From a virus, in IMG/VR virus record IMGVR_UViG_3300042294_005859, positions 1-45,386 of that record: DNA of 45,386 nt; one strand, 5' to 3'. Shown here piece by piece: positions 9,768-42,115 of this stretch. Below the pieces are notes generated by a model. The model did not search any database and was not told the DNA's origin. It saw only the letters and a program-made list of their open reading frames with translations. Each line of letters opens with the position of its first letter. Within the stretch, counting starts at the first letter, position 1. Position numbers and translations under genes: made by a program.

Positions 9768-11925
9768 TAGCATCAGTGGTACCGTAGATCGAGTGTTCTT
9801 CACCAGCGCCAAGTTCTCCGCCGGCGCACTTGTTCGCGACGACGGCGATCGTGTGCGTTTTCGTGGGCCATTCTGCGTGAGTGAAGGCGAACTGGTCACG
9901 CTCACGGGCCAGTGGAAAAGCGATCCCAAATATGGACCGCAGTTCGACGCGAAAAGCGTGAGCTACGATCTGCCGGAAACGCCTGAAGGTTTGGTGCAAT
10001 ACCTAGCCAAGCATCCGGCGTTCACTGGGATTGGCGAAACCACGGCGCGGAAGATTGTCGCTTATGTCGCCAGCGCAGAACATCTCGATCGAGTGATCCG
10101 CCAGGACATCGAGGAACTGCATCGCGCTCTACGGATTCCCAAACGCACCTTGCATTCGCTGCGTGAGGCGTGGATCGCAAACAGTTCCGAGAACGAAGTC
10201 CGGTCGTACTTGGCGAGTTTCGGGCTGTCCCATCATCAGATGGAAACATTGCTCGAAGAATTTGGATCCTCGGTGGTCGGCGTTCTGCGGGCGAATCCCT
10301 ATCTCATCATCCGCTACATCAAGGGCTACGGCTTTAAGCGGGTCGATAAGATCGCGAGATCGATGGGCGTTCCCAAAGAGCACCCGGGCCGGCTCGAATC
10401 CGCACTGTGTTATCTGGTTCGCGAAGAGGCAACCGATGGCCATACATGGATTGCCAACGACGAACTGATTCGTAAGGCAGTCGGTCTGCTGTTGCTCGAT
10501 TCAATCGATGCGCGCTCGGTCATCGAGGCGGCGTTTCAACGGGTTGTCGATCAGGGGCAACTGGAGGTCGATGGCGATGCCGTAGCGTTGCCGCACTATG
10601 CCGATGCCGAGCGATACATCTATGAATGCTTCCAACAATACTCGTACGTTCGTAGTCCTCTGGGTATTGAGACGGGAAATACTGTTGGGTTGAAGCGAGC
10701 ACAATTCGCTGCGTATGAGGCGGCGCTACGTCACGCGATTGTTGTGATTTCGGGCGGAGCCGGTACCGGAAAGACACACACGCTGGCGAGGCTAGCTCGT
10801 ACGTTCGATGAGGCGGGACTGAAGGTTGCCCTTTGCTCGCCCACCGGAAAAGCGGCGAAGCGTATCGAGGAGTCACTGCGTTCGCAAGACATTGACCTAA
10901 ATGCGAAGACCATACATCGGCTGCTCGAATCCAATGGTCTACAATTCCAACGCGAAAGCCTATCGTCGCCATCGCTGGACCGTGAAGGCAAAGTCCGTGA
11001 CCCAGCCTACGACATCGTCATTGTCGATGAAGTATCGATGGTCGATGTGCCGCTGATGTCCGAGCTGCTACGCCGGATCGATTTCGACAAAACACGATTG
11101 ATACTTGTCGGCGATCATAACCAGCTTCCACCGGTCGGCGCTGGTAACGTCCTTCGTGATTGTATTGAACACAAGCTAGTTCCGACGTTCATTCTCGATG
11201 AAGTCGTACGACAGGCCGGCGTGCTGAAGACCAACAGCATGGCGATCCTTTCGCAGCGCGTGATGCCAACCGCTGTGGGAGATCCAGCCTGGAGCGTCAT
11301 CGATTCTTTACAGGACCCGATGCAGATCCAGGTTTACCTGCGTGACCTCGTACTGAATCGCATTCCCGATCGGCTTGGTCTCGATCCTGTGAATGACGTT
11401 CAGATCATCACGCCAACGCATCTGGGCCAGCTCGGCACGAAAGCCATCAACGAGATGATGCAGTATCTGTTGCATGGCGCGGTTGATCGCAAGTTTGCCG
11501 TGGGCGACAAGGTCATTCAGACCACCAACGACTATGGCTTGGGAATCATGAACGGCACCATCGGTGTCGTATCAGAAGTCGAAACCACTGGAGGGACCAG
11601 TTACATCGTCGACTTCGATGGAGATGGCCACCGGCATATACATGGCGAACAGATCCTGAATCTTCAGCTCGCTTACGCGTTGACCGCTCACAAAGCCCAA
11701 GGGAGCGAGTTTCCCTGCGTCGTTGTGCTTTGCCACAAATCTCATTTCTTTGCGGATCGTAACTGGCTGTATACCGCGGTCACTCGCGCATCTCGGTATT
11801 GCATCTTGGTCGGTGATCGTTGGGGGCTTCGGAACGCTGTGAAAAAGAACAGCGTTAGCAAACGTCGAACGTTCCTTGATCGCTGGGCGAAGGCGAAGCA
11901 CTCGTCGATGGAGGTGGAGAATTGA
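9760..11925 (+). CDS. RecD2-like DNA helicase
   Basis: A 721-residue superfamily 1B helicase starting with GTG. The N-terminal OB-like and helix-hairpin-helix part (about 1-230) includes YLAKHPAFTGIGETTARKIV and the GYGFKRVDKIARSMGV repeat. Walker A is GGAGTGKTHT (about 332-341), Walker B is VIVDEVSMVD, and the later motifs include GDHNQLPPVGAGNV, a SH3-like insertion and ALTAHKAQGSEFPCVVV with LYTAVTRAS. RecD2 proteins unwind 5' to 3' without RecBC. In a phage replication operon it probably serves replication or recombination. The order of domains and length match RecD2. Confidence 0.92.
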   Translation: MSNSISGTVDRVFFTSAKFSAGALVRDDGDRVRFRGPFCVSEGELVTLTGQWKSDPKYGPQFDAKSVSYDLPETPEGLVQYLAKHPAFTGIGETTARKIVAYVASAEHLDRVIRQDIEELHRALRIPKRTLHSLREAWIANSSENEVRSYLASFGLSHHQMETLLEEFGSSVVGVLRANPYLIIRYIKGYGFKRVDKIARSMGVPKEHPGRLESALCYLVREEATDGHTWIANDELIRKAVGLLLLDSIDARSVIEAAFQRVVDQGQLEVDGDAVALPHYADAERYIYECFQQYSYVRSPLGIETGNTVGLKRAQFAAYEAALRHAIVVISGGAGTGKTHTLARLARTFDEAGLKVALCSPTGKAAKRIEESLRSQDIDLNAKTIHRLLESNGLQFQRESLSSPSLDREGKVRDPAYDIVIVDEVSMVDVPLMSELLRRIDFDKTRLILVGDHNQLPPVGAGNVLRDCIEHKLVPTFILDEVVRQAGVLKTNSMAILSQRVMPTAVGDPAWSVIDSLQDPMQIQVYLRDLVLNRIPDRLGLDPVNDVQIITPTHLGQLGTKAINEMMQYLLHGAVDRKFAVGDKVIQTTNDYGLGIMNGTIGVVSEVETTGGTSYIVDFDGDGHRHIHGEQILNLQLAYALTAHKAQGSEFPCVVVLCHKSHFFADRNWLYTAVTRASRYCILVGDRWGLRNAVKKNSVSKRRTFLDRWAKAKHSSMEVEN

Positions 11926-14495
11926 GCGCCGGACCTCCGCCACTACTTGAAGCTATTGAACGAAACTGCCCAAGCTGTCTTCGCGAACGTAATCAATGGG
12001 TTGCCTGGAAATACGTCGAGCGTGGAGGCAAGCCCACGAAGGCTCCGGTGAATCCGCATGATGGCTCGCTGGCTTCTTCGACTGACGCGACCACCTGGGG
12101 AACCTTCGCTCAGGCCATCGAGGCTTGCCGGCGCAACAGTGCACTCGCGGGCGTCGGCTTCGTTTTCACTGCTGATGATCCGTACTGTGGCGTGGATCTC
12201 GATGATTCGCTCGATGAATCAACGGGCGAGTTGAAGCCATGGGCTCAGCAGATCGTCGATCGTCTCGACAGCTACACCGAGATCAGCCCTTCAGGCTCGG
12301 GACTGAAGGTATTCATCAAAGCCAACAAGCCTGGATCTCGTTGTCGCAAAGCCTACGAAGATGGCGAGGTGGAGATCTACGATCGCGATCGCTTCTTTAC
12401 AGTTACTGGCAATCGACTCCCGAGCATTCCTGCTGAAGTCAACCTTCGCCAGGAATCGCTCGACTTTGTGTACGCACAGGTGTTCGGGAATGACGAACCA
12501 GGTGCGAACTCCGCATCGAGCGCAAGCCGTGGGCCAGAACCAAGCGATAGCGGCACCGTTGCGTTGAGCGACGATGAGATCATCGATCTTGCATCCAAGC
12601 AGCGGCGTTCTGGTCCGAAATTCCAAACTCTATGGGCCGGCGACTGGAACTCACATTTTAATTCAGCCAGCGAAGCTGATTCGTCGGTCGTTTTTACGCT
12701 TGCCTTCTACACCAAAGATCCCGAGCAGATCGATCGGATCTTTCGGCAATCCCAGTTGTTTCGTTCCAAGTGGGATGAGAAGCATGGAAGCGAAAGTTAT
12801 GGTCAAACGACCATCGCGAAGGCTCTCAGCAAAGTCACCAAACAGTACAAACCGCAGGCGAAAAAGACGCGAACGGCTCGACCGTTGGCTCCAGCGCCGA
12901 CCAATACGAGTTTGCCATCGATTCTGATTGACGATCGTCAATTGAGCGAGCTGACGGACCAGGCATTATCTGCGCTCAACTCTTCGAATCGAAAACCACA
13001 TCTCTTCATCCGCGCCGGCGGTATCGTGCGTGTGGTCTACGATGAACAAGGTGTTCCGAAGATCGATGCGATCGACACTGCCAAGATGCGGTGTCGATTG
13101 AGCGAGTCAGCTAACTTCTTCACGATGCGTCGATCCGATGGCGGATACATTCAGGTTGGAACGATCCCACCGAAGTCGCTGGCGGAAAACATCCTCGCAC
13201 AAAAGGACTGGTCCTTTCCAGCGTTGGCCGGCATCGCACGAGCGCCCATTCTCCGTCGCGATGGCACGATCTGCACAGCGCCAGGTTATGACCCCACCTC
13301 GCGATTGATGTACTGTCCCGATCCAGCATTGAAACTGGTCCCGATTCCTGATCATCCCTGCGGTGAAGAGGTCCGCGCCTGCGTTGACATCCTAATGCAA
13401 GTGATCGGCGAGTTCCCATTTGTGGACGCCCCCAGTCGAGCCAATGCGTTAGCGATTCTGTTCTCCATCTTGATGCGGCCGGTCATCGACGGCCATGTGC
13501 CGCTGGCAATCGTTGATGCGCCGATGCAAGGCACGGGCAAAACGCTGTTGGTGTCATCGCTCGCTGGCATCGCGGTTGGCGGCGTCTCTTCGGAATCGAT
13601 CCCGGCGAAAGAGAACGAGGACGAATGGCGTAAAAAGATCACGACGATTCTGATGACCGCTTCGCCATTCGTGCTGCTCGACAATATTCCCGACAACACA
13701 ACGCTCAACTCTCCACCTCTGGCGGCCACCCTCACCAGCTACGATTGGTCTGATCGCGTGTTGGGCAAAAGCCAAGCGATCCGGTTGCCCTCGAGAGCCG
13801 TTTGGGTCGCCACTGGAAACAATCTGCGAGTCTCGGGTGATATGCCGCGGCGCAGCTATAGCATCCGCCTCGATGCCAATGCGGAGCGTCCTTGGGAACG
13901 CACCGGTTTCGCGATCAAAGGTCTGCCTCGCCATATCGCCACGAATCGTGGCAATCTCTTGAGTGCCGCGCTGACGATCATTCGAGGTTGGTACACCAAC
14001 GGGCAGCCCAAGGCACCTACGCCAACACTCGGAAGCTTTGAAGAGTGGGCCGAGACCATCGGTAGCGTGTTGGCCTACGCGGGTATTGATGGCTTCTTAG
14101 GCAACCTCGAACAGACGCAAGTTGTTCAGGATGAGGACACCCAGCAATGGACTGCGTTCTTCGAAGCCTGGTGGGAGCGGTTCGGTAGTCGCAAGCAAAC
14201 GGCCGACGACATCTGCAGTGCCGTGATTCCACGACTCAATGATCCAGTCGAGTACATCAACGAACCGCTCTCTGGTGCGCTGCCCGAGGCTCTGATCGTC
14301 AACCGAGATCGAGGCGAGGGTGCATTCAAGCGTTCGCTAGGTCGACATCTATCGCGACTGCGTGGTCGTGTCTTCAGTGGTCGTAAACTGAATGATGCAG
14401 GCCTCAATAAGAAGAACCACGTTCGCCTTTGGCAGCTCGTTGATACCAAAGCACCACCATCGACTTTGTTCGAGATGGAGGGCGCAGATGAGTAG
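11922..14495 (+). CDS. Primase-polymerase fused to SF3-like helicase
   Basis: An 857-residue replication protein starting with TTG inside the helicase stop. The N-terminal 190 residues are a bifunctional primase-polymerase-like domain: NQWVAWKY, FVFTADDPYCGVDLDDSLD with the metal-binding DxD, then YTEISPSGSGLKVFIK and YDRDRFFTVTGN. A helical segment (LWAGDWNSHFNSASEAD) follows, as in NrS-1-type polymerases. The C-terminal part has an ATPase core: Walker A DAPMQGTGKT near 532-541, Walker B PFVLLDNIPD near 581, and VWVATGNNL as sensor 1. It would prime and unwind at the phage origin. The repeat-rich region directly downstream is its likely target. Confidence 0.88.
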   Translation: MSAGPPPLLEAIERNCPSCLRERNQWVAWKYVERGGKPTKAPVNPHDGSLASSTDATTWGTFAQAIEACRRNSALAGVGFVFTADDPYCGVDLDDSLDESTGELKPWAQQIVDRLDSYTEISPSGSGLKVFIKANKPGSRCRKAYEDGEVEIYDRDRFFTVTGNRLPSIPAEVNLRQESLDFVYAQVFGNDEPGANSASSASRGPEPSDSGTVALSDDEIIDLASKQRRSGPKFQTLWAGDWNSHFNSASEADSSVVFTLAFYTKDPEQIDRIFRQSQLFRSKWDEKHGSESYGQTTIAKALSKVTKQYKPQAKKTRTARPLAPAPTNTSLPSILIDDRQLSELTDQALSALNSSNRKPHLFIRAGGIVRVVYDEQGVPKIDAIDTAKMRCRLSESANFFTMRRSDGGYIQVGTIPPKSLAENILAQKDWSFPALAGIARAPILRRDGTICTAPGYDPTSRLMYCPDPALKLVPIPDHPCGEEVRACVDILMQVIGEFPFVDAPSRANALAILFSILMRPVIDGHVPLAIVDAPMQGTGKTLLVSSLAGIAVGGVSSESIPAKENEDEWRKKITTILMTASPFVLLDNIPDNTTLNSPPLAATLTSYDWSDRVLGKSQAIRLPSRAVWVATGNNLRVSGDMPRRSYSIRLDANAERPWERTGFAIKGLPRHIATNRGNLLSAALTIIRGWYTNGQPKAPTPTLGSFEEWAETIGSVLAYAGIDGFLGNLEQTQVVQDEDTQQWTAFFEAWWERFGSRKQTADDICSAVIPRLNDPVEYINEPLSGALPEALIVNRDRGEGAFKRSLGRHLSRLRGRVFSGRKLNDAGLNKKNHVRLWQLVDTKAPPSTLFEMEGADE

Positions 14496-15297
14496 CTCAA
14501 TCGTTCGTGGCGAGGTTAGCGAGGTTATTCGTGTGCAAATTTTGCGTACAGAATCGCGTTTGCGCGCATGTGCGCGCACCATGTACATCGCCATGTACAA
14601 GCCTATGTACAAGCCTATGTACATGGGGTTGTACAACGTACATGACGTGCGCGCCGACCACCGATGCTATGGACGCGAAATCGGTTGTAAGACTCCGATA
14701 TACAAGCACTTAGATGCCTTCGAAGCCTCTCTGGTGCTTTCAACCGCTAACCTCGCCAAACAGGGTCGTAACCTCGCCTCTTTGAGCCCTAACCTCGCCG
14801 TAACCTCGCCACACAAAGCCCAGAAAACATTGGGTTTTGATCAGAAAGCGAGGTTAGCGAGGTTAGAAGTCGACATCCCACATATAGAGGAAAACGATGT
14901 ACATACCCATGTACATGTACATTCGCCGTATAGAAGGGTATGGGAAATAACCTCGCTGGACCTCGCTAACCTCGCCAACGGGTTTTTGAGTGTGCGCGCG
15001 ATGATCTCTCTCGCATCAATCCAACGCACGACGTTGCCCCAAGTCGCAAGATCTCTACCAAGTCGCCCAACGAGCCGCCCATCGCGCTCGACGCGTCAGT
15101 GGGCCAACGAGGGCCTCACGGTGCGACTGCCAGAGTGGCACTCAGTCGCAAGTTGCGACGAAATCGCGAGCCCCCAGCGGATGGGTCCTCCCCAAAAAAT
15201 CTACGCGCCATTGGGCCGCGGGAACAGCCGCGCGATCAATCACAGTTTGTTTGTTTTGTCCGACCCCCAGTTTCCTAACCAAAGGATTGCCTTATGA
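14488..15297 (+). CDS. Doubtful ORF across the origin-like repeats
   Basis: The frame is open for 269 codons from an ATG with GGAGGG five bases upstream, and its stop overlaps the methyltransferase start. Against it, the product is not protein-like. It contains tandem MYxx units made by the 12-bp TGTACA repeat, runs such as LANLA made by the 9-mer, and a long Pro/Arg/Ser stretch with no domain. I treat the stretch 14496-15290 as noncoding origin or regulatory DNA that happens to be open. A short coupled product cannot be excluded. Confidence 0.2.
   Translation: MSSSIVRGEVSEVIRVQILRTESRLRACARTMYIAMYKPMYKPMYMGLYNVHDVRADHRCYGREIGCKTPIYKHLDAFEASLVLSTANLAKQGRNLASLSPNLAVTSPHKAQKTLGFDQKARLARLEVDIPHIEENDVHTHVHVHSPYRRVWEITSLDLANLANGFLSVRAMISLASIQRTTLPQVARSLPSRPTSRPSRSTRQWANEGLTVRLPEWHSVASCDEIASPQRMGPPQKIYAPLGRGNSRAINHSLFVLSDPQFPNQRIAL
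14510..14975. repeat. Iteron-like 9-mer array GCGAGGTTA
   Basis: Ten perfect copies of GCGAGGTTA. Forward copies start at 14510, 14519, 14848 and 14857; inverted copies start at 14748, 14769, 14790, 14801, 14948 and 14967. One inverted two-mismatch copy starts at 14958. Inverted copies are spaced 21, 21 and 11 bases, close to two and one helical turns, and the forward copies are head-to-tail pairs. Such phased arrays are typical of iterons bound by an initiator. The position directly after the primase-helicase supports a replication origin. Confidence 0.7.
14582..14921. repeat. TGTACA palindrome array with 12-bp period
   Basis: Five TGTACA palindromes start at 14582, 14594, 14606, 14618 and 14630, exactly 12 bases apart. 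Three more start at 14898, 14910 and 14916. CGTACA variants lie at 14545 and 14637. Two TGCGCGCA palindromes (14561 and 14571) precede the array. The array interleaves with the 9-mer iterons, so two different proteins may bind here. Confidence 0.65.
15145..15159. promoter_or_regulatory. Perfect 7-bp inverted repeat before the methyltransferase
   Basis: GTCGCAA and TTGCGAC flank a single G, about 135 bases before the methyltransferase start. Related AAGTCGCAAG occurs near 15040. It may be an operator for the methyltransferase gene or part of the origin. Confidence 0.35.
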
Positions 15298-16712
15298 CCA
15301 CCACTGCATTGCAAATTGAAATGTGGCCGCTCGATCGAGTTCGCCCTTATGAAAACAACCCTCGCAACAACGATAAGGCCGTTGACGCGGTCGCAGCGTC
15401 AATCAAGGAATTTGGATTTTCACAGCCAATTGTTGTCGACAGCGACAGCGTCATCATCGTCGGTCATACGCGTTTGAAGGCGGCGCAGAAGCTCGGACTG
15501 GATCGGGTACCAGTCGTGGTTGCTTCGCACCTCACGCCAGAACAAGTTCGCGCTTACCGGATCGCTGACAACAAGACCGCCGAAATCGCGGAATGGAACT
15601 ACGATCTGTTGCCGATCGAATTGTCGGCACTCCAGGAAGCCAACTACGATCTCGGGCTGCTTGGGTTCAGCGCCGATGAGTTGGCAAAGTTGATGGACAC
15701 CGGAATCAACGAAGGTCTCACCGATCCCGATGATGTCCCTCTGCCTCCCGACGAAGCGATCACACAGCCGGGCGATCTTTGGATCCTCGGCGACCATCGT
15801 TTGCTGTGCGGTGACTCGGCGAACCCGGAGCATCTCGATCGACTGTTGGCCGGCGCACCGATCCATCTTATAAACACTGACCCGCCCTACAACGTCAAGG
15901 TTGAACCGCGCAGCAAGAATGCGATCGCGGCTGGCTTGAGTTCGTTCACGAACGATGCGGCTTCGTCAAAGCTGAAGAACGACCAAGGCATGGCGGCGTT
16001 CACGCATGCGATCAATCAGAAGAACAAGGCCAAGTCCGGCGCGTCAGCCACTGCGACTGCTGACGCACCTCGGCAAAAGTTGCGAGCCAAGGATCGACCA
16101 CTGGCAAATGACTTTGTTACCGACGACGAGTTCGATCGACTGCTCGATGCGTGGTTTGGAAATATTGCTCGCGTACTCGTGCCTGGTGGTTGTTTCTACA
16201 TCTGGGGCGGCTATGCCAATTGCGGAAACTACCCGCCGTTCCTGAAAAAGCATGGTTTGTATTTCAGCCAAGCGATCATCTGGAACAAGATGCATCCGGT
16301 TCTGACTCGCAAAGATTTCATGGGCGCGCACGAATGGGCGTTCTATGGATGGAACGAGGGTGCCGGACATAAGTACTACGGCCCGAATAACGAAACGGAC
16401 TTATGGAACGTAAAGAAGATCCCGCCCCAGCAACTCGAGCATCTCACTGGCAAGCCTGCCGAGCTCGCGGTTCGATCGATCCAGTACTCGTCGCTCCCAG
16501 GCCAGAACGTGCTCGACCTCTTCGGTGGCAGCGGATCAACCTTGATCGGCGCAGAGCAGACGGGACGCAATGCGTTCTTGATGGAACTCGATTGCCCGTA
16601 CGCGGACGTCATCGTCGATAGGTTTCAACGCTTCACGGGAAAGCAAGCGATCCTCGAGCGAACGGGTGAGTCGCCGATTCCGATGAAGCCACGTGAAGAG
16701 AACATGCGATAG
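15294..16712 (+). CDS. ParB-domain DNA methyltransferase (N6-adenine or N4-cytosine)
   Basis: A 472-residue fusion. Residues 1-110 are a ParB/Srx-like N-terminal domain (RPYENNPRNNDKAV, SIKEFGFSQPIVVD, IIVGHTRLKAAQKLG). The methyltransferase follows, with motif IV DPPYNV near 196 ahead of the AdoMet-binding motif DLFGGSGST near 410, the beta-class order. About 70 residues between them carry a lysine/alanine-rich insertion. These enzymes are common in phages and modify viral DNA to evade restriction or mark it for regulation. No partner endonuclease is present. AAAGGA precedes the ATG. A perfect AGGAGG lies right at its stop codon (16711), with no obvious + strand gene to serve. Confidence 0.92.
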   Translation: MTTTALQIEMWPLDRVRPYENNPRNNDKAVDAVAASIKEFGFSQPIVVDSDSVIIVGHTRLKAAQKLGLDRVPVVVASHLTPEQVRAYRIADNKTAEIAEWNYDLLPIELSALQEANYDLGLLGFSADELAKLMDTGINEGLTDPDDVPLPPDEAITQPGDLWILGDHRLLCGDSANPEHLDRLLAGAPIHLINTDPPYNVKVEPRSKNAIAAGLSSFTNDAASSKLKNDQGMAAFTHAINQKNKAKSGASATATADAPRQKLRAKDRPLANDFVTDDEFDRLLDAWFGNIARVLVPGGCFYIWGGYANCGNYPPFLKKHGLYFSQAIIWNKMHPVLTRKDFMGAHEWAFYGWNEGAGHKYYGPNNETDLWNVKKIPPQQLEHLTGKPAELAVRSIQYSSLPGQNVLDLFGGSGSTLIGAEQTGRNAFLMELDCPYADVIVDRFQRFTGKQAILERTGESPIPMKPREENMR

Positions 16713-16722
16713 GAGGTCGCAT

Positions 16723-17040
16723 TCAAAGCTTATGACAATGCCAAGCTTGATCCTCAAAGATATAGATGTATTCGGCTCCGCAATTCCTCGCGAATTCGTG
16801 AAGGGCTGCGCGCGTCGGCATTACAACCGTGCGATTGCCGTCAGAGAATCGTTCGGGCGTTCCGTCGTTTGCGAGCGAACGAATATCGCCGCCGGCGACA
16901 AGCGTCCGTGCCGAATCAATCGCAATGTAGTTTTGTTCGAGGATCTTGCCGGCATGGTCTGGGTAGCCATCGAAGTGCAGATAGATCGCTGCGTAACGAC
17001 CATCGTCTTGCTTGCAGGCAATCGTTGCTCGTGTAGACAT
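16723..17040 (-). CDS. Conserved phage protein of the MSTRATIA type
   Basis: A 105-residue protein resembling a widespread phage and plasmid family that begins with MSTR, an IA(V)xQxDG strand, then YLHFDGYPDHAGKIL, a GDIRSL segment and a GAEYIYIFED strand near the end. Its function is not established. AAGGAA precedes the ATG. It is the last gene of a run of minus-strand genes and ends convergently with the methyltransferase, 10 bases apart. It shares the block's common codon phase. Confidence 0.8.
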   Translation of the reverse strand: MSTRATIACKQDDGRYAAIYLHFDGYPDHAGKILEQNYIAIDSARTLVAGGDIRSLANDGTPERFSDGNRTVVMPTRAALHEFARNCGAEYIYIFEDQAWHCHKL

Positions 17041-17052
17041 GTTTTGTGTTCC

Positions 17053-17277
17053 TTACTTCGATGGTTCGTGGTGGTTGGGTTCGACAATCGAGACGCAGTC
17101 GTCAGGCATCGTCAACATGAGTGTTCGGCCGTTGTCCCAATCGACATCGATCTGCATCCAGTCGCGATGATCGTGAACGGCGACGACGGTCCCGAGCGAT
17201 CCAACTGGAATCGGATCGGGATCTTGCGGCATCGACACCAGGCGAATGCGATCGCCTTTCTTCAATCGTGTTTGCAT
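17053..17277 (-). CDS. DUF4314 protein
   Basis: A 74-residue protein that is almost entirely the DUF4314 domain: KKGDRIRLVSMPQDPDPIPV, GSLGTVVAVHD, WMQIDVDWDNGRTLML and a final DCVSIV. The fold is a small SH3-like beta barrel. The family is common in phages and mobile elements, and its role is unknown. An AAGGAACC ribosome-binding site lies before the start, and only 12 bases separate it from the next gene downstream. Family assignment is confident. Confidence 0.88.
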   Translation of the reverse strand: MQTRLKKGDRIRLVSMPQDPDPIPVGSLGTVVAVHDHRDWMQIDVDWDNGRTLMLTMPDDCVSIVEPNHHEPSK

Positions 17278-17295
17278 AGTCAGTGGTTCCTTGAT

Positions 17296-17511
17296 TCATT
17301 TCGTGGTTGTGGTGAGTTTGTCGAGCAGCTCGCCGGCTTGAGCGAGTCGTACGTTGACCTGGGCCATCGTGTGTACGTTGCGCCAGCCCAACGCTGGGTC
17401 ATCTGGTGGTTGCAATGCGTCAAGCGATTGACGCAGTCGATCGAGGTAGTCGCGAGCTACGAGGTGAAGGTTCTCATAGGGAGCCGCCGGCTCAATGGAC
17501 GTTTTGGACAT
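17296..17511 (-). CDS. Small helical hypothetical protein
   Basis: From the ATG at 17511, preceded by AGGAAC, the product has 71 residues. The frame opens 14 codons earlier, but those codons carry no ribosome-binding site. The sequence is a helical bundle type: HLVARDYLDRLRQSLDAL, then VHTMAQVNVRLAQAGELLDKL. No family is recognised. It lies 18 bases before the DUF4314 gene and is probably co-transcribed with it. Upstream is a 258-base spacer (17512-17769). Confidence 0.7.
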   Translation of the reverse strand: MSKTSIEPAAPYENLHLVARDYLDRLRQSLDALQPPDDPALGWRNVHTMAQVNVRLAQAGELLDKLTTTTK

Positions 17512-17769
17512 CGTTGGTTCCTGGTTGTTAGAGAGACGAAAGACGGTCCCCAACAGTCAGCCAACGAATCACGAGAACATCAAGCCAACATGCGAGCATG
17601 TTTTGCAAAATTCTTCCAAACATGTGGATGCACCGGCAAATCGCAGTTTCGCGATGTGTCGCATTATGTTGCTGGTTGGGCTAATGTTCTCATCAACGAG
17701 AAAACGCCCGCACGGTGCAAACGTGGGGCGATTGGTGGGAAGCATTCCGTGCTTCTGGTTCTAGGTTCC
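17512..17769 (-). promoter_or_regulatory. Spacer with a divergent leader for the three-gene run
   Basis: No minus-strand gene is seen here. On the minus strand the segment holds AACATGCTCGCATGTTGGC, which contains the palindrome AACATGCTCGCATGTT, followed by a CTTGATG word like the CGGCTTGA of the repeated leaders further upstream. It probably carries the promoter for the genes at 17511, 17277 and 17040. Confidence 0.35.
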
Positions 17770-18003
17770 CTACAGGTCGCGCGGTACCAAGATGGCAGCT
17801 CCGTGTCCGGAGACTGCGATCGAGTCTCCGTTAGTTGTGCGCGCGAACAGCGTCGGGCCCAGTCGGATCACATCAACAACGCTGCCGACGTCAAGCTTGC
17901 GATTGTGGATCGTACGCAGGTCGTAGGTGATGCCTGGCTCTGGCGTTGCGATCTCGCCGTCGGCCAGGTCATCCACCGTTCGCAAATCGTAAAAGTGTTT
18001 CAC
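17770..18003 (-). CDS. Small hypothetical protein
   Basis: A 77-residue protein from a GTG start at 18003, with AGGAGA upstream. It is beta-rich, with a repeated YDLRT word (residues 5-9 and 27-31) and the ending VSGHGAAILVPRDL. No family is recognised. It lies 12 bases after the HARE-HTH gene and so is probably translated from the same transcript. Confidence 0.65.
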   Translation of the reverse strand: MKHFYDLRTVDDLADGEIATPEPGITYDLRTIHNRKLDVGSVVDVIRLGPTLFARTTNGDSIAVSGHGAAILVPRDL

Positions 18004-18015
18004 CGGCGGGGTCTC

Positions 18016-18585
18016 CTAGCCTCGAACCGTGAAGCGTCCGCGTTCGGTCTTTACGAACTTGCTGTCGTCGCCCTTGGCCAAGTCGCGAAGGATCGCGCTG
18101 TACAAGGTCGCGTGGGGAGTCTTGCCACCGGGGCTAGTCCAATAGCCCTTGGCTTCCATCGCAGTGATCAACTCTTGCGCGTTCATCGGATCGCTCGATT
18201 CGCCAAGAACCTTCAAGGCCGCAGCGACGCAGCTCAATCGCTTCTCGCCGGCGTCTGCGGTCTCGGTGGTTGCCGCTTTCGCCTTGCGTGGCCTCTTGAG
18301 AACCGCAACCGCTGTGGAAGTCTCGCCGCCGAACGTTTCAACCGTTGCGGGTTCGTTCTCGACCACGGTAACGTTGCCCTCAGTGGTCACTTTCGCGCGA
18401 CCGCGTCGCGTGCCGACTTCGCCCTGCAGGCGTTGAGCGCTCTTGATGAGGATCTTCTTTCCGGTTGCGAGGTTGGTCGCGTCCCAGCCACCGCGAGGCT
18501 TCTCGGCATCGATTTGAATCTCGCATCGATTACCCGAGACGTTCGCGTAGTACTTGCCACCGATTTTTACTTCTGCCTTCTTCAT
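18016..18585 (-). CDS. HARE-HTH winged-helix protein
   Basis: The ATG at 18585 is preferred because GGGAG lies before it; the frame opens 13 codons earlier. The product has 189 residues. The N-terminus is a small beta domain (VKIGGKYYANVSGNRCEIQI). A basic Ala/Thr-rich linker follows (about 70-125), then a C-terminal HARE-HTH domain: LSCVAAALKVLGE, PMNAQELITAMEAKGYW, a TPHATLYSAI helix and a FVKTERGRFTV wing. HARE-HTH domains are thought to bind modified or structured DNA and occur in restriction and chromatin proteins. Here it may regulate the block or recognise phage DNA modified by the neighbouring methyltransferase; that is inference. Confidence 0.82.
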   Translation of the reverse strand: MKKAEVKIGGKYYANVSGNRCEIQIDAEKPRGGWDATNLATGKKILIKSAQRLQGEVGTRRGRAKVTTEGNVTVVENEPATVETFGGETSTAVAVLKRPRKAKAATTETADAGEKRLSCVAAALKVLGESSDPMNAQELITAMEAKGYWTSPGGKTPHATLYSAILRDLAKGDDSKFVKTERGRFTVRG

Positions 18586-18678
18586 CTTCGTATCTCCCAA
18601 TTCATGTTCGTGGTTGGCTGCCATCGTCAGGTCGATCGAACCACCGATCGACTACGCGCGTCCGTGTCGCGTTTCGGC

Positions 18679-18993
18679 TTATTGACCAAAGACCAAGTCC
18701 GACAATCCCTCGCAAAGAAAGTCGACTACCACCTGGACCTCCGTGCTCGCCGCCGGCACATCCAATCCGCGATCGAAGTTGAACATCACTTTGTGGTCGG
18801 CCAGTCGTTGAATCCAAAGCTTCGAGATCTTGCTCTGGTTGAGCTCGAAGGATTCTCGCTCTGCGTGGTCTGCGAACACCAAGGCATCGAAGCGATAGTC
18901 GTCGTTGATCTTGCCTTGCACCCAAGATCCGCCAGCGCCGCGGTTGCGATTGCTGATCTTGGTGATCGTCAGGTCGAAGTCGTGTTGGGTCAT
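18679..18993 (-). CDS. Small conserved hypothetical protein
   Basis: From the ATG at 18993, with CGGAGA upstream, the product has 104 residues. It begins with a beta segment (FDLTITKISNRNRGAGGSWVQGKI), continues with YRFDALVFADHAE and SKISKLWIQRL, and ends with FNFDRGLDVPA and a short helix. It looks like a compact alpha/beta domain, but I cannot name a family with confidence. Its start lies 40 bases downstream of a copy of the repeated leader element. Confidence 0.7.
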   Translation of the reverse strand: MTQHDFDLTITKISNRNRGAGGSWVQGKINDDYRFDALVFADHAERESFELNQSKISKLWIQRLADHKVMFNFDRGLDVPAASTEVQVVVDFLCEGLSDLVFGQ

Positions 18994-19032
18994 CTGCTGG
19001 TCTCCGTTGTTTGGTTGGTGAATCGTTTTCGC

Positions 19033-19057
19033 GTTAACACACATGAGCCATGCGGTT
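19033..19057 (-). repeat. Repeated leader element, copy 1
   Basis: Contains ACACATGAGCCATGCGGTT as read on the + strand, followed by a mirror AACCGCAT, so that ATGCGGTT and AACCGCAT form an inverted repeat. It ends 40 bases before the start at 18993. This copy has GTTAAC where most others have GATGAC. Confidence 0.75.
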
Positions 19058-19077
19058 TGAACCGCATCAAGCCGGAT

Positions 19078-19326
19078 TCAAAAGGAATTCGGAATCTTTT
19101 CTTCGGTGCATACCTGCGTTCGGAAATGTTGGGCGAGCTTGGCGGCTGTGGCCTGTACATCGGCCAGTTCGTCGAAGAACCGCTTCATGGTGTTTGGGTC
19201 GGAAGCGGCGAGGATCGGCATTTCTTCGACCGCTGCGTACAGGTCGCTAATTGTTTCCAGCGCTCGTCGGTGCGTTCCGAGGAATTGGGCCGAGGTCAGG
19301 CGTGGTCGGTTGGTCATCGTTGGCAT
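19078..19326 (-). CDS. Small helical hypothetical protein
   Basis: The ATG at 19326 follows CGGAGA and gives 82 residues; an in-frame ATG nine bases later is possible. The longer frame from 19395 reads into the repeated leader and is not preferred. The product is helical (LGTHRRALETISDLYAAVEEM, then FFDELADVQATAAKLAQHF) and belongs to no family I know. It lies between two leader elements, so it appears to be its own transcription unit. Confidence 0.65.
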   Translation of the reverse strand: MPTMTNRPRLTSAQFLGTHRRALETISDLYAAVEEMPILAASDPNTMKRFFDELADVQATAAKLAQHFRTQVCTEEKIPNSF

Positions 19327-19367
19327 AGTGTTGATCTCCGTTTGTTCGTGTTTGATATGTCGTATGC

Positions 19368-19392
19368 GATGACACACATGAGCCATGCGGTT
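19368..19392 (-). repeat. Repeated leader element, copy 2
   Basis: Same core ACACATGAGCCATGCGGTT, here followed by CAAACCGCAT, giving a near-perfect inverted repeat ATGCGGTT-CA-AACCGCAT. It lies 42 bases before the start at 19326 and is the only copy out of phase with the others. Confidence 0.75.
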
Positions 19393-19411
19393 CAAACCGC
19401 ATCAAGCCGAA

Positions 19412-19450
19412 GGGGAAAAGATTCTGAAGGTTTTTCAGGATCTTTCCCCC
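19412..19450 (-). terminator. Long hairpin after the gene at 19471
   Basis: GGGGAAAAGATTCTGAA pairs with TTCAGGATCTTTCCCC across a short loop, with one bulge and one mismatch. It lies between the stop of the upstream gene and the next leader, the position of a terminator on the minus strand. Confidence 0.6.
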
Positions 19451-19470
19451 GGCGCATCGGTGTGTCGCAA

Positions 19471-19743
19471 TCAACTATCGCGACATGTTTCCCAAGCCCG
19501 CTTGCTGCCGTAGCAGATCTGCCCGCCTTCGACGATGTAGACCGTGTTGTCGTCGGCAACGTCTTGGGCGTCGTCGTCTTCATCCTCATCGTCGGACGCG
19601 TCGTTCATGTCGCGGCCGCTGGTCACGCCGCAGATGCGGTTCTCGAAAGGCCAGTTCTGCTGGGTCATCAGCCGCACTTCGGCGTCGCCTCCGAACTCTT
19701 CGCGGTAGTCGTTGAGGATTTCGATCAGGGTGTCGAGATTCAT
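19471..19743 (-). CDS. Conserved small acidic protein
   Basis: A 90-residue protein: NLDTLIEILNDYREEFGGDAEVRLMTQQNWPFENRICGV, an acidic low-complexity middle (DASDDEDEDDDAQD), then NTVYIVEGGQICYGSKRAWE. I have the impression that proteins with EVR(L/I)MTQxNWPFE and VEGxQxxYGSKxAW are shared by planctomycetes and their phages, but the role is unknown. CGGAGAA precedes the ATG, and a leader element lies 40 bases upstream. This is good evidence that the minus strand is the coding strand here. Confidence 0.8.
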   Translation of the reverse strand: MNLDTLIEILNDYREEFGGDAEVRLMTQQNWPFENRICGVTSGRDMNDASDDEDEDDDAQDVADDNTVYIVEGGQICYGSKRAWETCRDS

Positions 19744-19782
19744 GTTTGGTTCTCCGTTTGGGTGAATGAAAATTGGTTATGC

Positions 19783-19807
19783 GATAACACACATGAGCCA
19801 TGCGGTT
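19783..19807 (-). repeat. Repeated leader element, copy 3
   Basis: Core ACACATGAGCCATGCGGTT followed by CGGATAACC and CAAGCCG. It lies 40 bases before the start at 19743. Confidence 0.75.
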
Positions 19808-19851
19808 CGGATAACCTCAAGCCGTACTTTCAATGTTTTCAGCAGGTTTTG

Positions 19852-20127
19852 TCAGCATTCTTTGGAAGGCAAACATTCGTCGATCGCTTCGGGCAACATG
19901 CTGCCAGAAAGGACCTCGATTGCTTCTTCAAACATGCGGAGTTCTGCTTCGAGGGCGCGAGCCGAATCTCCGCTCGCTACCACGAACGCGCCCGCCAAGT
20001 TGTCGGCCAGTCGCTTCAACCGTGTGACCACTTCGCGATAGTCGTCGCAGATGTCCAGCGCGGTAGCGCGAGGCATTTGTTTGAAGGCGGTTCTGATAGC
20101 AGTGTGTCTGGCGTTGGTTCGGGCCAT
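19852..20127 (-). CDS. Small helical hypothetical protein
   Basis: From the ATG at 20127, with GAGGAGA upstream, the product has 91 residues. The open frame continues 26 codons into the leader, but the leader has no ribosome-binding site there. The product is helical throughout (CDDYREVVTRLKRLADNLAGAF, then ARALEAELRMFEEAIEVLSG), with a basic N-terminus MARTNARHTAIR. No family is recognised. Confidence 0.68.
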   Translation of the reverse strand: MARTNARHTAIRTAFKQMPRATALDICDDYREVVTRLKRLADNLAGAFVVASGDSARALEAELRMFEEAIEVLSGSMLPEAIDECLPSKEC

Positions 20128-20172
20128 CGGTTTGTTCTCCTCTTGCGTGGTGAAAGCGGTCGGTCGCTGGGC

Positions 20173-20197
20173 GATGACACACATGAGCCATGCGGTT
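20173..20197 (-). repeat. Repeated leader element, copy 4
   Basis: Core ACACATGAGCCATGCGGTT followed by CCAAACACAGCAAGCCGG. It lies 46 bases before the start at 20127. Confidence 0.75.
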
Positions 20198-20328
20198 CCA
20201 AACACAGCAAGCCGGTTCCAGCAGCAATTTCCGATGTTCTTTCATGTTTCTCGGGAAGCCTTACGGGCCCCGACGTTGGCCCGTGTTGCGATGTATTGAA
20301 TGTTGGGTACTTGGTCGAAGGTGTTCAT

Positions 20329-20392
20329 AAGAACGCGACTGTGGGCGAGTGTCGCGACCAAGCGGAAGAACGCCGCGATTCCGTTCGCGGCG
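20329..20392 (-). repeat. 64-bp spacer repeat, copy A, with terminator hairpin
   Basis: Ends in the perfect hairpin CGCCGCGA-N6-TCGCGGCG (20371-20392) just after the stop of the gene at 20419. It aligns without gaps to 21448-21511, with six differences in 64 bases, all three-periodic. Read on the minus strand in the neighbours' phase it encodes GIAAFFRLVATLAHSRV. Confidence 0.65.
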
Positions 20393-20418
20393 TCCGTGGC
20401 ATTCCGCTGGTCTGTGGT

Positions 20419-20676
20419 TTAAAGGATCTTTCCGAGGCGGCTGTTCTTCATCGCGTCCAGGGCTTGGACCGCGTTGAAGTGTTCGGTGAGAAGCGGGCCG
20501 GCGCTGGGTGTTTGTTGTGCGTCGGCGACCTCGAGGGTTTCTGCCAAGGTCATCAAACCCTCGATTGCCTTGTAGTAGGCTTCGCGGATCTCTTGGGCTT
20601 GGTGGGCGTCCATCGCCTTGAAGATTTGGCGAAGGGTTGCATCGGTCGCTGCGTGTGGGTTGTTTGCGTTGGTCAT
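20419..20676 (-). CDS. Small helical hypothetical protein
   Basis: An 85-residue helical protein (LRQIFKAMDAHQAQEIREAYYKAIEGLMTLAETLEVADAQ, then LLTEHFNAVQALDAMKNSRLGK). CGGAGA precedes the ATG. Natural amino-acid composition and helix periodicity favour this frame over the competing 158-codon frame on the same strand, which begins inside the leader. Function is unknown. It is flanked by a leader element upstream and a hairpin downstream. Confidence 0.7.
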   Translation of the reverse strand: MTNANNPHAATDATLRQIFKAMDAHQAQEIREAYYKAIEGLMTLAETLEVADAQQTPSAGPLLTEHFNAVQALDAMKNSRLGKIL

Positions 20677-20718
20677 GTTTGTGTCTCCGTTTCGGAAAAA
20701 GGTTTGAATCGTTTACGC

Positions 20719-20743
20719 GATGACACACATGAGCCATGCGGTT
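20719..20743 (-). repeat. Repeated leader element, copy 5
   Basis: Core ACACATGAGCCATGCGGTT followed by TCGATAACC and CAAGCCG. It lies 43 bases before the start at 20676. The intervening leader, with CGAAACGGAGA, is nearly identical to that of copy 6. Confidence 0.78.
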
Positions 20744-20955
20744 TCGATAACCTCAAGCCGAGCATGCGAGAATTCGGAAAAGATTCTGCAGCTTTCTTTC
20801 CGGTGCGTCGGCAGTCACAGAAGTTCGCGTATCGGGAGGACTCATATGTTCGCCCTCTAATAACTATCTATGCAAAAGAGGTCCAACGAGGTTCCAGAGA
20901 ATTGCGAGGCAAGCCCGCCGGCAGCGCTTGGCCGCCGGCGAATCCGCGATGCTCG

Positions 20956-21249
20956 CTAGTCTTTCTTCAAAAAGAACTCGAGCATTTTTTGTTGCTCATA
21001 AAGTTTTGTGAGTTCCGCTTTGGCCTCGCGAGCTGCGCGGAGGTCGCCCTCGGCGAAATCGACCCAGGACATGCTACATGGTTCGTCGGCCAGCAATGCC
21101 TCGGTGTCTTTAGTTGCCCCTTGTGCGCGTCGAAGCATGCATTGAGCCGCTTCGTCCATGCGGCGCTTTGCATCCGGAATCATCCATTTGAGGCGTCGCA
21201 GTTGGTCTTGGATCGCTTGCTCGGCGCTCGTTTGATTCGTTTCGTTCAT
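20956..21249 (-). CDS. Small coiled-coil hypothetical protein
   Basis: A 97-residue protein, charged and helical: QAIQDQLRRLKWMIPDAKRRMDEAAQCM, a middle with CSMSWVDF, then DLRAAREAKAELTKLYEQQKMLEFFLKKD, which looks like a coiled coil. CGGAGA precedes the ATG. No family is recognised. The spacer after its stop (20677-20955, 279 bases) carries leader copy 5 and a GAATTC-rich segment but no hairpin as clear as its neighbours'. Confidence 0.7.
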   Translation of the reverse strand: MNETNQTSAEQAIQDQLRRLKWMIPDAKRRMDEAAQCMLRRAQGATKDTEALLADEPCSMSWVDFAEGDLRAAREAKAELTKLYEQQKMLEFFLKKD

Positions 21250-21291
21250 CTGTGTTTCTCCGTTTCGGAAAGGGAATGGAATCGTTTACGT

Positions 21292-21316
21292 GATGACACA
21301 CATGAGCCATGCGGTT
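21292..21316 (-). repeat. Repeated leader element, copy 6
   Basis: Core ACACATGAGCCATGCGGTT followed by TGAATAACC and CAAGCCG. It lies 43 bases before the start at 21249, the same distance as copy 5. Confidence 0.78.
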
Positions 21317-21447
21317 TGAATAACCTCAAGCCGATTCAGCCAACTTTTTTGAATGTTTTTCCATGTTTCTCAGCATGCCCTACGGTCGCCAACGTTGGCC
21401 CACGTCGCGTCCGTTCACATGTGGGGTACTCGGTCGAATGTTGCTGC

Positions 21448-21511
21448 AAGAACGCGACTGTGCGCAAGCGTCGCGACCAAACGAAAGAACGCCGCGATTC
21501 CATTCGCGGCG
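21448..21511 (-). repeat. 64-bp spacer repeat, copy B, with terminator hairpin
   Basis: Homologue of 20329-20392, ending in the same perfect hairpin CGCCGCGA-N6-TCGCGGCG (21490-21511), 17 bases after the stop of the amidoligase gene. On the minus strand a T-rich TTCTTTCG follows the stem, so it can act as a terminator. A more diverged relative lies near 22596-22628. Confidence 0.65.
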
Positions 21512-21528
21512 CTCTATGTGGTTCCGTT

Positions 21529-22386
21529 CTAGGCCGCGCGGTCGTATTTGCGGGCGAGTTCCAAGAGTTTGGTTTTGATGGTCTTCCATTCCGGTTTGGT
21601 TTCGCCGGCGATCTCTCCGTAGATCTTGTCGCGAAGGGCACCCTTGTACCAACCCTTGGTCCATCCGAGCCGGTAGAACAATCGGTTGATTTCGGTTTCG
21701 CCAAGGCCAGCCCCGGGGCGATCCCAGCAACTCTTGGTGCCTTCCTTTTTGATGTAGTCCCATTCGCTGCAGCGTTTGGTATTAAGGGCCAATTCAACCA
21801 AACCCAAAACCATCATCAGGTATCCGACCGCCTTGGTCTTGTTGAGCGTTCCGCCGAAGGCCCGGAACTCGATTCGGTTCTTACCGCGGGTCAGGTGGGT
21901 CAGGTTCAGCAGGTGGTAGCGATCCGATTCGCATCGGCTCTTGGCGTTGTCTTTGTTGCCGTATTGCTTGATCCGCTTGGCGTACATCATCTGTTCGCGT
22001 TTGCGGGTTCCGGTCGAGGCGTAGATCGCTCGTTCGTGGTTGCCGACCAGGGAAATCAATCTTGCCAAGGCGGATGCGTCTCCGTTCCAGCTAACCGTTA
22101 TGTGCAGGCCGCAGCTCGAATTTACTTGGCCACCGCGAGCGTTGATCTGGTCGATCGCGTCTTCGACCTGTCGTACGCCTTCAACCCCTTTGAGTATTGG
22201 GCTTACGAACTCGCAACCTTTGCGGCTGGCGTTCTCGGGTCGGATGCTCCCGTCGCGTTCTGCTTTCCATCCGGTTGGCAGCCAAGGTACTTGGTATCCG
22301 CTGTGGTAAGGTCCGATCGGTGTGTTGTCGGTGCCGGGGAGGGTGGTTTCAAATTCGATTCCGAAGGCGATTTCGTTTGCGTTCAT
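21529..22386 (-). CDS. Amidoligase-family protein
   Basis: The ATG at 22386 (AAAGGAAC upstream) gives 285 residues; the frame continues 48 codons upstream into the leader, which is not preferred. FGIEFETTLP at the N-terminus, then RDGSIRP, CEFVSPILKG, INARGGQVNSSCGLHITVSW and RIEFRAFGGTLN are the conserved blocks of the putative amidoligase (COOH-NH2 ligase) family, ATP-grasp-related enzymes that form amide bonds between amines and carboxyls. In phages they are rare accessory genes that may modify host proteins or cell wall. It is the first and largest gene of the minus-strand array. Substrate is unknown. Confidence 0.85.
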   Translation of the reverse strand: MNANEIAFGIEFETTLPGTDNTPIGPYHSGYQVPWLPTGWKAERDGSIRPENASRKGCEFVSPILKGVEGVRQVEDAIDQINARGGQVNSSCGLHITVSWNGDASALARLISLVGNHERAIYASTGTRKREQMMYAKRIKQYGNKDNAKSRCESDRYHLLNLTHLTRGKNRIEFRAFGGTLNKTKAVGYLMMVLGLVELALNTKRCSEWDYIKKEGTKSCWDRPGAGLGETEINRLFYRLGWTKGWYKGALRDKIYGEIAGETKPEWKTIKTKLLELARKYDRAA

Positions 22387-22440
22387 TGTTCTGTTCCTTT
22401 GTGGTGCGAGGTGTGTTTTGCGTCGCGTTTTCTGCGTCGC

Positions 22441-22464
22441 GATGACACACATGAGCCATGCGTT
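22441..22464 (-). repeat. Repeated leader element, copy 7 (diverged)
   Basis: ACACATGAGCCATGCG is kept, but GGTT has become TTTC. It lies 55 bases before the amidoligase start. The 22465-22660 spacer beyond it also holds AACATGC words and a relative of the 64-bp spacer repeat. Confidence 0.65.
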
Positions 22465-22660
22465 TCGAGGAACATCCAGCCGATTCCTGCATGTTTTTCC
22501 AGTAATTCTGCATGTTTTCTGAGAGGCCACCGGTGCGCCAACATTACGCCACGGTCGCGTCTAAACATGCTCCGCATAACGAGGCGAACATGCGGTTGAA
22601 ACGCGACCGTGCGCAAACGGTGGCCCCACGTTTCGAGATGCCAAACCATGGAGGAATGCG

Positions 22661-38107: not shown

Positions 38108-38898
38108 TGGGATTCTCAAGCGGGGGATACAACTTTGAATTGGCAGCGCTGTCCAAGAAGGCGACTCGAGGCAAGTCGACCGCCGACACGTTCGTGTACG
38201 TTGCGACGAACGGAGGGGCCGTTGATCCTGCCACCGCAGCCGATGCCCTACTCTCGTACTATCGCAGCAATCATCGCGATCTGATTCCATTCCTGCAGAT
38301 TGATGGCGAGTACATCAACGAGAAGCACGCGCTCGTCACGGCCTCAATCAATAGGACAAAGCTTGATCCGGTCTCGTTCAATACCACCGGCGCGTCAACG
38401 CATCTCAACCAATCACTTTTAACCCGTGGCATCTATGCCGCCCCTGGCAAGATCGCCCCCAACTATCGCGGTGCAATCGGTGTGAGCGACTCGGGCGTTG
38501 CCGGCGTCGATGTAACCGTTCCCGCGTTTGAGTTCTCAGTCCGTAAGAAGTTTGAATTCGTCTCGACGGCATACCTTCTCGCCATGGTCGCCATGACCGG
38601 ACGAGTCAACTCAAGTCCCTGGTCGATCTTCGCGCCTGGCGAAGCCTTGTTTCTGGGTGGAGAAGGTGGCGAGGACGATCAGAACTGGGTCGATGTGACC
38701 TATCACTTCGCGGCGCGACCCAATGAGATGAATCTCACGGTTGGCAATATCGCAGGCGTTGCAAAACGTGGCTGGGATTATCTCTGGGTCAAGCATGGTG
38801 AAGAGGTGGTCGGCGATCGCGTCCTGCAAGTTCCCGAAGCGGCTTACGTCGAGCAGGTTTACCCCGAAGCGAATTTTAACGCGCTGGGGATCGAGTAA
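38107..38898 (+). CDS. Distal tail protein, unknown family
   Basis: A 263-residue beta-rich protein starting one base from the tape measure stop. It includes DLIPFLQIDGEYINEKHALVTASINRTKLDPVSFN, an AFEFSVRKKFEFVSTAYLLAMVAMTGRVN segment with hydrophobic helix, and the PWSIFAPGEALFLGGEGGEDDQNWVDVTYHFAARPN region. I recognise no family. The position after the tape measure and before the fibre-like gene is that of a distal tail or baseplate hub protein. Its stop overlaps the next start. Confidence 0.7.
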   Translation: MGFSSGGYNFELAALSKKATRGKSTADTFVYVATNGGAVDPATAADALLSYYRSNHRDLIPFLQIDGEYINEKHALVTASINRTKLDPVSFNTTGASTHLNQSLLTRGIYAAPGKIAPNYRGAIGVSDSGVAGVDVTVPAFEFSVRKKFEFVSTAYLLAMVAMTGRVNSSPWSIFAPGEALFLGGEGGEDDQNWVDVTYHFAARPNEMNLTVGNIAGVAKRGWDYLWVKHGEEVVGDRVLQVPEAAYVEQVYPEANFNALGIE

Positions 38899-41546: not shown

Positions 41547-42115
41547 TCCATTGTCCTAATTTGACCATCGACAACCGATGCCAGGTTGCCAGTCACATGG
41601 CCGAGTGCTCCGTCCAGGCTTCATCCAGCGGTTGCCACGCGTGCACCGAGTGTTCCAACCCGCAAGCAATCAACCTTGTGACGATCGGCATGGCCATCGT
41701 CAACCGGCGTCGGCGCAATCAAAACGTCGACGAACTCAAAACACTGCTGAAGAGCTACCTGCCTAATCAGGAAGAACCCGCGACTCTACGAATCGCGGCT
41801 TATAGGCCAGGTCCAGGTAACGAACTTCGCAAGATGCTCGCTTGGTTCGCAAGACCAAGCGACACCTGCAAGTGTGAGACCCGCGCCGAGACCATGAATG
41901 ATTGGGGCGTGGAAGGATGCCGTACGAATCTTGACACCATTATCGAATGGCTTTTGGAAGAAGCCCAACTCAGAGGATTACCCCATGGAAAGTTTACTAG
42001 AACCATCGCTAAGTCACTCGTGCTCACCGCCATCCGTCGGTTTGAACGTAAGTTCCCAGACGGTGCACCCGAGCCCAACGAAGACGATCCAGATGCCGAC
42101 GAAGAAGATCGTTGA
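41543..42115 (+). CDS. Cys-rich hypothetical protein
   Basis: A 190-residue protein overlapping the serine-rich gene by four bases. The N-terminal 45 residues carry six cysteines (DNRCQVASHMAECSVQASSSGCHACTECSN), and a second group is CKCETRAETMNDWGVEGCRTNLDTIIEWLLEEAQLRGLP (about 112-150). That second block reminds me of small phage proteins encoded next to glycosyltransferase-like genes, but I cannot name a family. The C-terminal tail is acidic. It may bind zinc or form disulphides; the role is unknown. Confidence 0.7.
   Translation: MIHCPNLTIDNRCQVASHMAECSVQASSSGCHACTECSNPQAINLVTIGMAIVNRRRRNQNVDELKTLLKSYLPNQEEPATLRIAAYRPGPGNELRKMLAWFARPSDTCKCETRAETMNDWGVEGCRTNLDTIIEWLLEEAQLRGLPHGKFTRTIAKSLVLTAIRRFERKFPDGAPEPNEDDPDADEEDR

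Follow-up and report, generated by a model that had tools for sequence, protein, structure and literature searches.

What do the short repeats do that lie directly behind a primase-polymerase/helicase gene in this phage, and which part of which protein would read them? The window, i.e. the whole stretch of DNA analysed here, is a 45,386-base virus record from IMG/VR, with completeness not given.

Repeat array in the window

The iteron GCGAGGTTA occurs in ten exact copies, four on the plus and six on the minus strand, all of them within 466 bp (14510-14975), and no further exact copy was found outside this interval in the whole 45,386-bp window. Dinucleotide-shuffled windows held on average 0.17 copies and at most three, and in shuffles of the interval the commonest 9-mer did not exceed three occurrences. 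The array starts 15 bp past the stop codon (14493-14495) of the gene encoding an 857-aa PrimPol-helicase (11922-14495, plus strand), the proposed self-loading initiator and polymerase. The initial annotation had described ten perfect copies directly behind a primase-polymerase/helicase gene, and each copy was recovered where it had been placed.

A first head-to-tail pair on the plus strand (14510-14518 and 14519-14527) is followed by four minus-strand copies (14748-14756, 14769-14777, 14790-14798 and 14801-14809), by a second plus-strand pair (14848-14856 and 14857-14865) and, beyond a spacer of 82 bp (14866-14947), by two further minus-strand copies (14948-14956 and 14967-14975). Between these last two lies a degenerate eleventh copy, GCGAGGTCC (14958-14966, minus strand), which splits the final 19-bp step into 10 + 9 and is nearer perfect in several relatives. 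The successive steps of 9, 229, 21, 21, 11, 47, 9, 91 and 19 bp agree with the 9-bp head-to-tail pairs and the inverted copies spaced 21, 21 and 11 bp reported before, whereas the helical phasing claimed along with them stands inside the clusters (9-11 and 19-21 bp) and fails between them (47, 91 and 229 bp). As a refinement of that description, the functional core appears to consist of the two inverted sets around the 82-bp spacer, the proposed melting region, in which A+T reaches 57% compared to 44% in the gene.

The 100 bp at positions 14561-14660 form the most alternating purine-pyrimidine stretch in the window (80%; mean 50.5%, sd 5.1) and carry TGTACA at 12-bp steps (14582-14635), a possible unwinding element. 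Long alternating runs and TGTACA at 12-bp steps were seen in or beside the candidate origin core (14561-14660 and 14866-14947), and the spacers of four relatives (L006, L016, L019 and L004) also hold such runs, of up to 34 nt in L006. The alternating tract is possibly a melting or Z-DNA-prone element. The DnaA box, searched in the form TTATNCACA, is absent from the window, unlike in iteron plasmid origins of the RepE/TrfA type.

An open reading frame of 269 aa (14488-15297, plus strand) lies over the array, open for 269 codons and with ATGA overlaps at both ends, and the repeats might accordingly be a mere by-product of the low-complexity protein it would encode. This can hardly be right. In the alignment of the relatives' loci, substitutions are spread almost evenly over the codon positions of this frame (64, 73 and 82), whereas the primase gene has 132, 68 and 446 in the same alignment; moreover, indels break the frame in relatives and neither Pfam nor PHROGs gave a match for its product. 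Because of the flat codon-position substitutions and the frame-breaking indels, the ORF was judged not to be conserved as protein and the coding explanation of the repeats was rejected, in line with the initial annotation, which had held that the ORF does not explain them. The comparison of this interval in related phages, proposed at the same time, found it kept as repeats and not as protein.

Elsewhere in the window, a large serine recombinase (686-2242) suggests that the phage integrates. A 1968-aa open frame (16693-22599) between the methylase and terminase genes gave no Pfam or PHROGs match, clusters of repeated 8-9-mers (AGCGAATCG and AGTTCGTCG) were observed at 39900-41100 within an 882-aa ORF (38898-41546) with no Pfam match, and a phage gene at 41898-43463 combines a glycosyltransferase family 25 part with a sulfotransferase part.

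Arrays in related loci

Every one of the 17 examined relatives with a C-terminal half like that of the window protein carries an array of the SCGRGGTTA type directly 3' of the gene; the relatives were drawn from virus contigs and Planctomycetota contigs, and the count leaves out the partial matches L161 and L162 and the truncated L158. Their iterons read GCGAGGTTA, CCGAGGTTA or GCGGGGTTA and lie directly after the gene or reach into its 3' end. Alignment of these loci revealed a conserved core of two plus copies, a spacer of 80-100 bp and up to three minus copies, to which the exact copies at 14848-14865, 14948-14956 and 14967-14975 of the window belong, and this layout is kept while the spacer sequence drifts.

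In the wider primase-helicase family, a significant 8-mer array was detected 3' of the gene in 45 of 60 non-redundant related loci, compared to 2 of 55 regions upstream and 2 of 56 further downstream. The repeats vary by lineage (GGGTTACT, TGTTACTT, AGTGTAAC, GTGACGGG and others). Inverted copies surround a spacer of 63-115 bp in 35 of the 45 arrays, and in 30 of these 35 the A+T content of the spacer is above that of its surroundings. Pairs on both sides of the spacer were found in 20 of the 45 arrays, a number that did not exceed 10 in 300 orientation shuffles, and the same-orientation steps over all 45 peak at 9-10 bp and again at 21 bp. GTTA is common to the iterons of several lineages, which are few in number. 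In L164 and L166 the iterons (GGGGACGT and GGGGATGT) lie within the coding end of the TOPRIM-helicase gene and are translated into a GDVGDVGDV protein tail.

The window array sits between two co-directional genes, as operators or other regulatory sites for the downstream genes might. Such a role is improbable, given that no promoter-like or terminator-like match was found in 14300-15350, that the layout and the helical steps fit origins and that the arrays track the C-terminus of the initiator across many different phages.

The PrimPol-HBD-helicase protein

Residues 20-315 of the 857-aa protein align with NrS-1 polymerase structures (E 5e-39), with D92 and D94 matching NrS-1 D78 and D80, so the catalytic Asp pair of PrimPols is present. 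The helix bundle domain (HBD, residues 250-311, 12669-12854, plus strand) matches Pfam PF22763 above the curated cut-off (E 9.5e-25). The His of AEP motif II (sxH) is absent and replaced by Lys129, invariant in 14 aligned sequences; motif II has been described as needed for nucleotide binding (PMC5862659). Residue 129 (12306-12308) is Lys in all aligned planctophage PrimPols, compared to the NrS-1 His in SPSGDGLHV. Residues 340-857 gave no Pfam match, including the NrS-1 head and tail domains PF22761 and PF22762, and match PHROGs families, some of them without known function. Lacking both the motif II His and the head and tail domains, the protein is not classed as an NrS-1-type polymerase throughout.

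The C-terminal domain proposed to bind the iterons (residues 740-843, 14139-14450, plus strand) was modelled alone by AlphaFold2 with a pLDDT of 84 and a pTM of 0.76; the full-length model was poor (mean pLDDT 46). The domain model shows helices and then a beta-hairpin whose turn contains residue 833 (codon 14418-14420, plus strand), and the predicted order of helices and hairpin suits a winged helix. A Foldseek search of the model against the PDB returned no significant match, none of the Pfam families matched the domain, and hhalign detected no similarity between it and the C-termini of Firmicute phages.

The protein part that tracks the repeats

Among the relatives L116-L132, residues 1-350, HBD included, are 61-77% identical to the window protein, and no array was found near the gene. 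In those with a complete gene the C-terminus differs and is of the D5_N/DUF5906/Pox_D5 type in L117, the one scanned with Pfam; even a 76% identical PrimPol-HBD joined to a D5-type C-terminus comes without an array. Counted over whole records, SCGRGGTTA occurs 0-1 times in 16 L116-L132 records as opposed to 2-11 times in eight array-bearing records, the array-less records being fragments, several of them longer than 20 kb. The array-less relatives must start replication at another site. Several of them keep the downstream ParB_N-methylase at 71-95% identity. The gene for this ParB_N-N6/N4 methylase comes after the array in the window, and the repeats could in principle be its recognition sites or parS-like partition sites; yet L129, L131, L116 and L117 keep the gene (up to 92% over 469 residues) and have no array. 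Because relatives retain the gene without arrays, this very improbable role was rejected.

Swaps in the other direction were also found. A C-terminal half like that of the window protein (31-38%) is joined to other N-termini in L164, L165, L166 and L169, and all four keep arrays; the N-terminus is of the TOPRIM type in L164 and L166 and a Prim-Pol of another Pfam family in L169, and none was recognised in L165. No HBD was found in the TOPRIM N-termini of the array-bearing proteins. L168, with a window-type C-terminus, has no array.

These exchanges bear on the question of whether the HBD reads the repeats as single-stranded template and primes at each of them, as the NrS-1 polymerase does at 5'-TTTGGTTA-3'. 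The window protein has an HBD, the iteron end GGTTA resembles NrS-1 TTTGGTTA (PMC8718748), and the only exact TTTGGTTA of NrS-1 lies within the array of 11 AGTGTAAC copies that immediately follows its primase gene; however, GGTTA is missing from many related iterons, the phages with a 61-77% identical PrimPol-HBD have no array in whole records, and TOPRIM N-termini, with no HBD found in them, still come with arrays. Furthermore, L111 and L004 share 94% over residues 1-320, yet differ in iteron type and at residue 833. The HBD as reader of the repeats is thus weakened by domain swaps in both directions and by the L111/L004 pair, and we regard priming at each repeat as unlikely.

The C-terminal domain was the only part that the iteron type tracked. 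On trees of residues 1-320 and 321-735 the A/G state of iteron base 4 takes four changes each, no fewer than in typical shuffles. For residues 736-857 the tree takes a single change, a value reached by 0 of 500 shuffles, with 17 sequences, one long branch (L159) and weak support (73/49) for the branch of the change. Columns that discriminate the two types number 0 of 193 in PrimPol, 0 of 109 in the HBD, 0 of 415 in the helicase and 9 of 111 in the C-domain, which, as the most variable part, also yields such columns more readily. Residue 833 is His in 12 of 12 A-type loci (GCGAGGTTA-type arrays) and Lys in 5 of 5 G-type loci (GCGGGGTTA-type arrays), from which a specificity prediction follows: His at this residue for iterons with A at base 4, Lys for those with G. 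In a family-wide partial Mantel analysis, iteron similarity correlated with C-terminal identity (r 0.18) and also, more weakly, with N-terminal identity (r 0.12), hence this analysis is not decisive alone.

The sequence comparisons have shown that the iteron sequence associates with the C-terminal domain and not with the PrimPol-HBD or the helicase core. This indicates that the tail end of the enzyme, and not its polymerase part, would recognise the repeats. The C-domain adjoins the array, so a recombination tract may carry both by linkage without the domain reading the repeats, and such physical linkage may contribute to their co-inheritance. The initial annotation had pointed to initiator binding and to the 857-residue protein; the likely binder can now be narrowed to its C-terminal domain.

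Proposed function of the array

The earlier proposal of a candidate origin beside a replication initiator gains from these data, with array and layout kept in relatives and with similar arrangements in the rep_origin of phage A2 and the crr of P4. In our view the array is probably a replication origin or an essential cis site to whose duplex form the C-terminal domain of the initiator would bind, and it is very probably the site where the phage starts copying its DNA. The 857-aa protein would bind the duplex iterons through its C-terminal domain of about 120 residues and assemble, presumably as a loaded hexamer, on the inverted sets 14848-14865 and 14948-14975, aided by the outer copies. In the next step the AAA+/SF3-like C-terminal half would open the 82-bp spacer, and on the strands thus exposed the N-terminal PrimPol-HBD half would initiate and elongate DNA, outward in both directions. 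The array thereby provides an origin and an initiator domain that can be tested in uncultivated planctomycete phages and in phages with NrS-1-type PrimPols; an iteron array in such phages was not found described in the literature searched.

Comparison with known replication systems

In SaPI origins two repeat sets flank an A+T-rich stretch, and similarly the window sets 14848-14865 and 14948-14975 flank the 82-bp spacer with its A+T content above that of the gene. The short repeats of SaPI Rep/ori and of SCCmec Cch2, the latter origin being putative, lie directly downstream of the initiator helicase gene and are recognised by the C-terminal domain of the protein (PMC7581432). As in SaPI Rep/ori, the window array is placed directly downstream of the initiator helicase gene and kept in relatives. 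Unlike SaPI Rep and Cch2, the window protein has an NrS-1-type PrimPol and HBD fused to it, and its C-terminal half matched no Pfam family.

In the P4 record, crr is annotated directly 3' of the alpha gene and contains 8-bp type 1 repeats with pairs at 9-bp steps and inverted copies. The P4 alpha primase is of the TOPRIM type (PMC4234260), whereas the window protein has a PrimPol. P4 possesses a separate ori with further iterons and the window only one array, in a record that may be incomplete. Since in P4 it is crr rather than ori that follows alpha, the window array might be a crr-like assembly site, bound by the initiator and essential for replication, with synthesis starting elsewhere. GC skew, which has its cumulative minimum at 8.6 kb and no turn at the array, would fit such a site; as the check proposed with the initial annotation it proved uninformative, the site not being singled out. 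On the other hand, the window has no other copies that would correspond to the further iterons at the P4 ori, and in Lactobacillus phage A2 the origin is annotated at the array position, which leaves this possibility a small but appreciable chance. The best reading, as far as anatomy shows, is that the array would work like SaPI Rep/ori and P4 alpha/crr. The rep_origin of phage A2 (32208-32717) runs from the end of an HBD-type primase gene and holds an array whose repeats flank an A+T-rich stretch as in the window, but with the repeat ACGGGAGG and a D5_N/Pox_D5 C-terminus.

NrS-1 (record AB746912) shares with the window a homologous PrimPol and HBD, and here too the gene is directly followed by an array, of 11 AGTGTAAC copies, whereas the window protein is without the head and tail domains and without the motif II His, which is replaced by Lys129. 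Primer-free DNA synthesis by NrS-1 polymerase begins at template 5'-TTTGGTTA-3' or GTG (PMC8718748). Two copies of the 8-nt site have been reported (PMC7102993), compared to one exact TTTGGTTA in AB746912, which overlaps a copy of AGTGTAAC. The window contains TTTGGTTA exactly twice, at 8230 and 15276, both outside the array, and 8 of 100 shuffles reach two; the copy at 15276-15283 (minus strand) is just ahead of the methylase gene and not clearly above chance.

ORF904 of the archaeal plasmid pRN1 combines PrimPol, SF3 helicase and winged helix, and pRN1 requires a 100-bp stem-loop 3' of the gene, as its authors also propose for Bordetella phage BIP-1; both origins were described as stem-loops without iteron structure (PMC4234260). 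Mutated pRN1 stems are reported to have replicated only with symmetry restored (PMC4234260), which favours structure in that plasmid. Folding also gives a strong hairpin for the core of the planctophages (z -5.1), which any inverted iterons would produce; the two readings can therefore not be separated by a stem-loop alone. On re-reading, the BIP-1 arms (L171), separated by a spacer of about 68 bp, contain two TTGCCTCGT and two inverted ACGAGGCAA at 9-bp steps, and each pRN1 arm contains TGTCCA twice at a 9-bp step. In both, as in the window, inverted arms lie 3' of the gene for the replication protein, here with a loop of 58-68 bp between them. Furthermore, the arms of pRN1, pRN2 and pHEN7 (L172-L174) are most self-similar at lag 9 (21 of 34 positions; binomial p 2e-5, uncorrected for the eight lags tried). 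This suggests that the published pRN1 and BIP-1 stem-loop origins are the same design read differently.

There is about an even chance that planctophages, NrS-1, Firmicute phages, P4, BIP-1 and the archaeal pRN plasmids share one origin design together with a mobile cassette. In this design the initiator gene would be directly followed, on its 3' side, by iteron pairs with 9-10-bp steps, placed in inverted orientation on the two sides of a spacer of about 60-115 bp, and the array would move with the C-terminal DNA-binding domain of the initiator independently of the primase type. If so, the stem-loops of pRN1 and BIP-1 would be inverted iteron pairs and the priming sequence of NrS-1 would be part of an iteron array.
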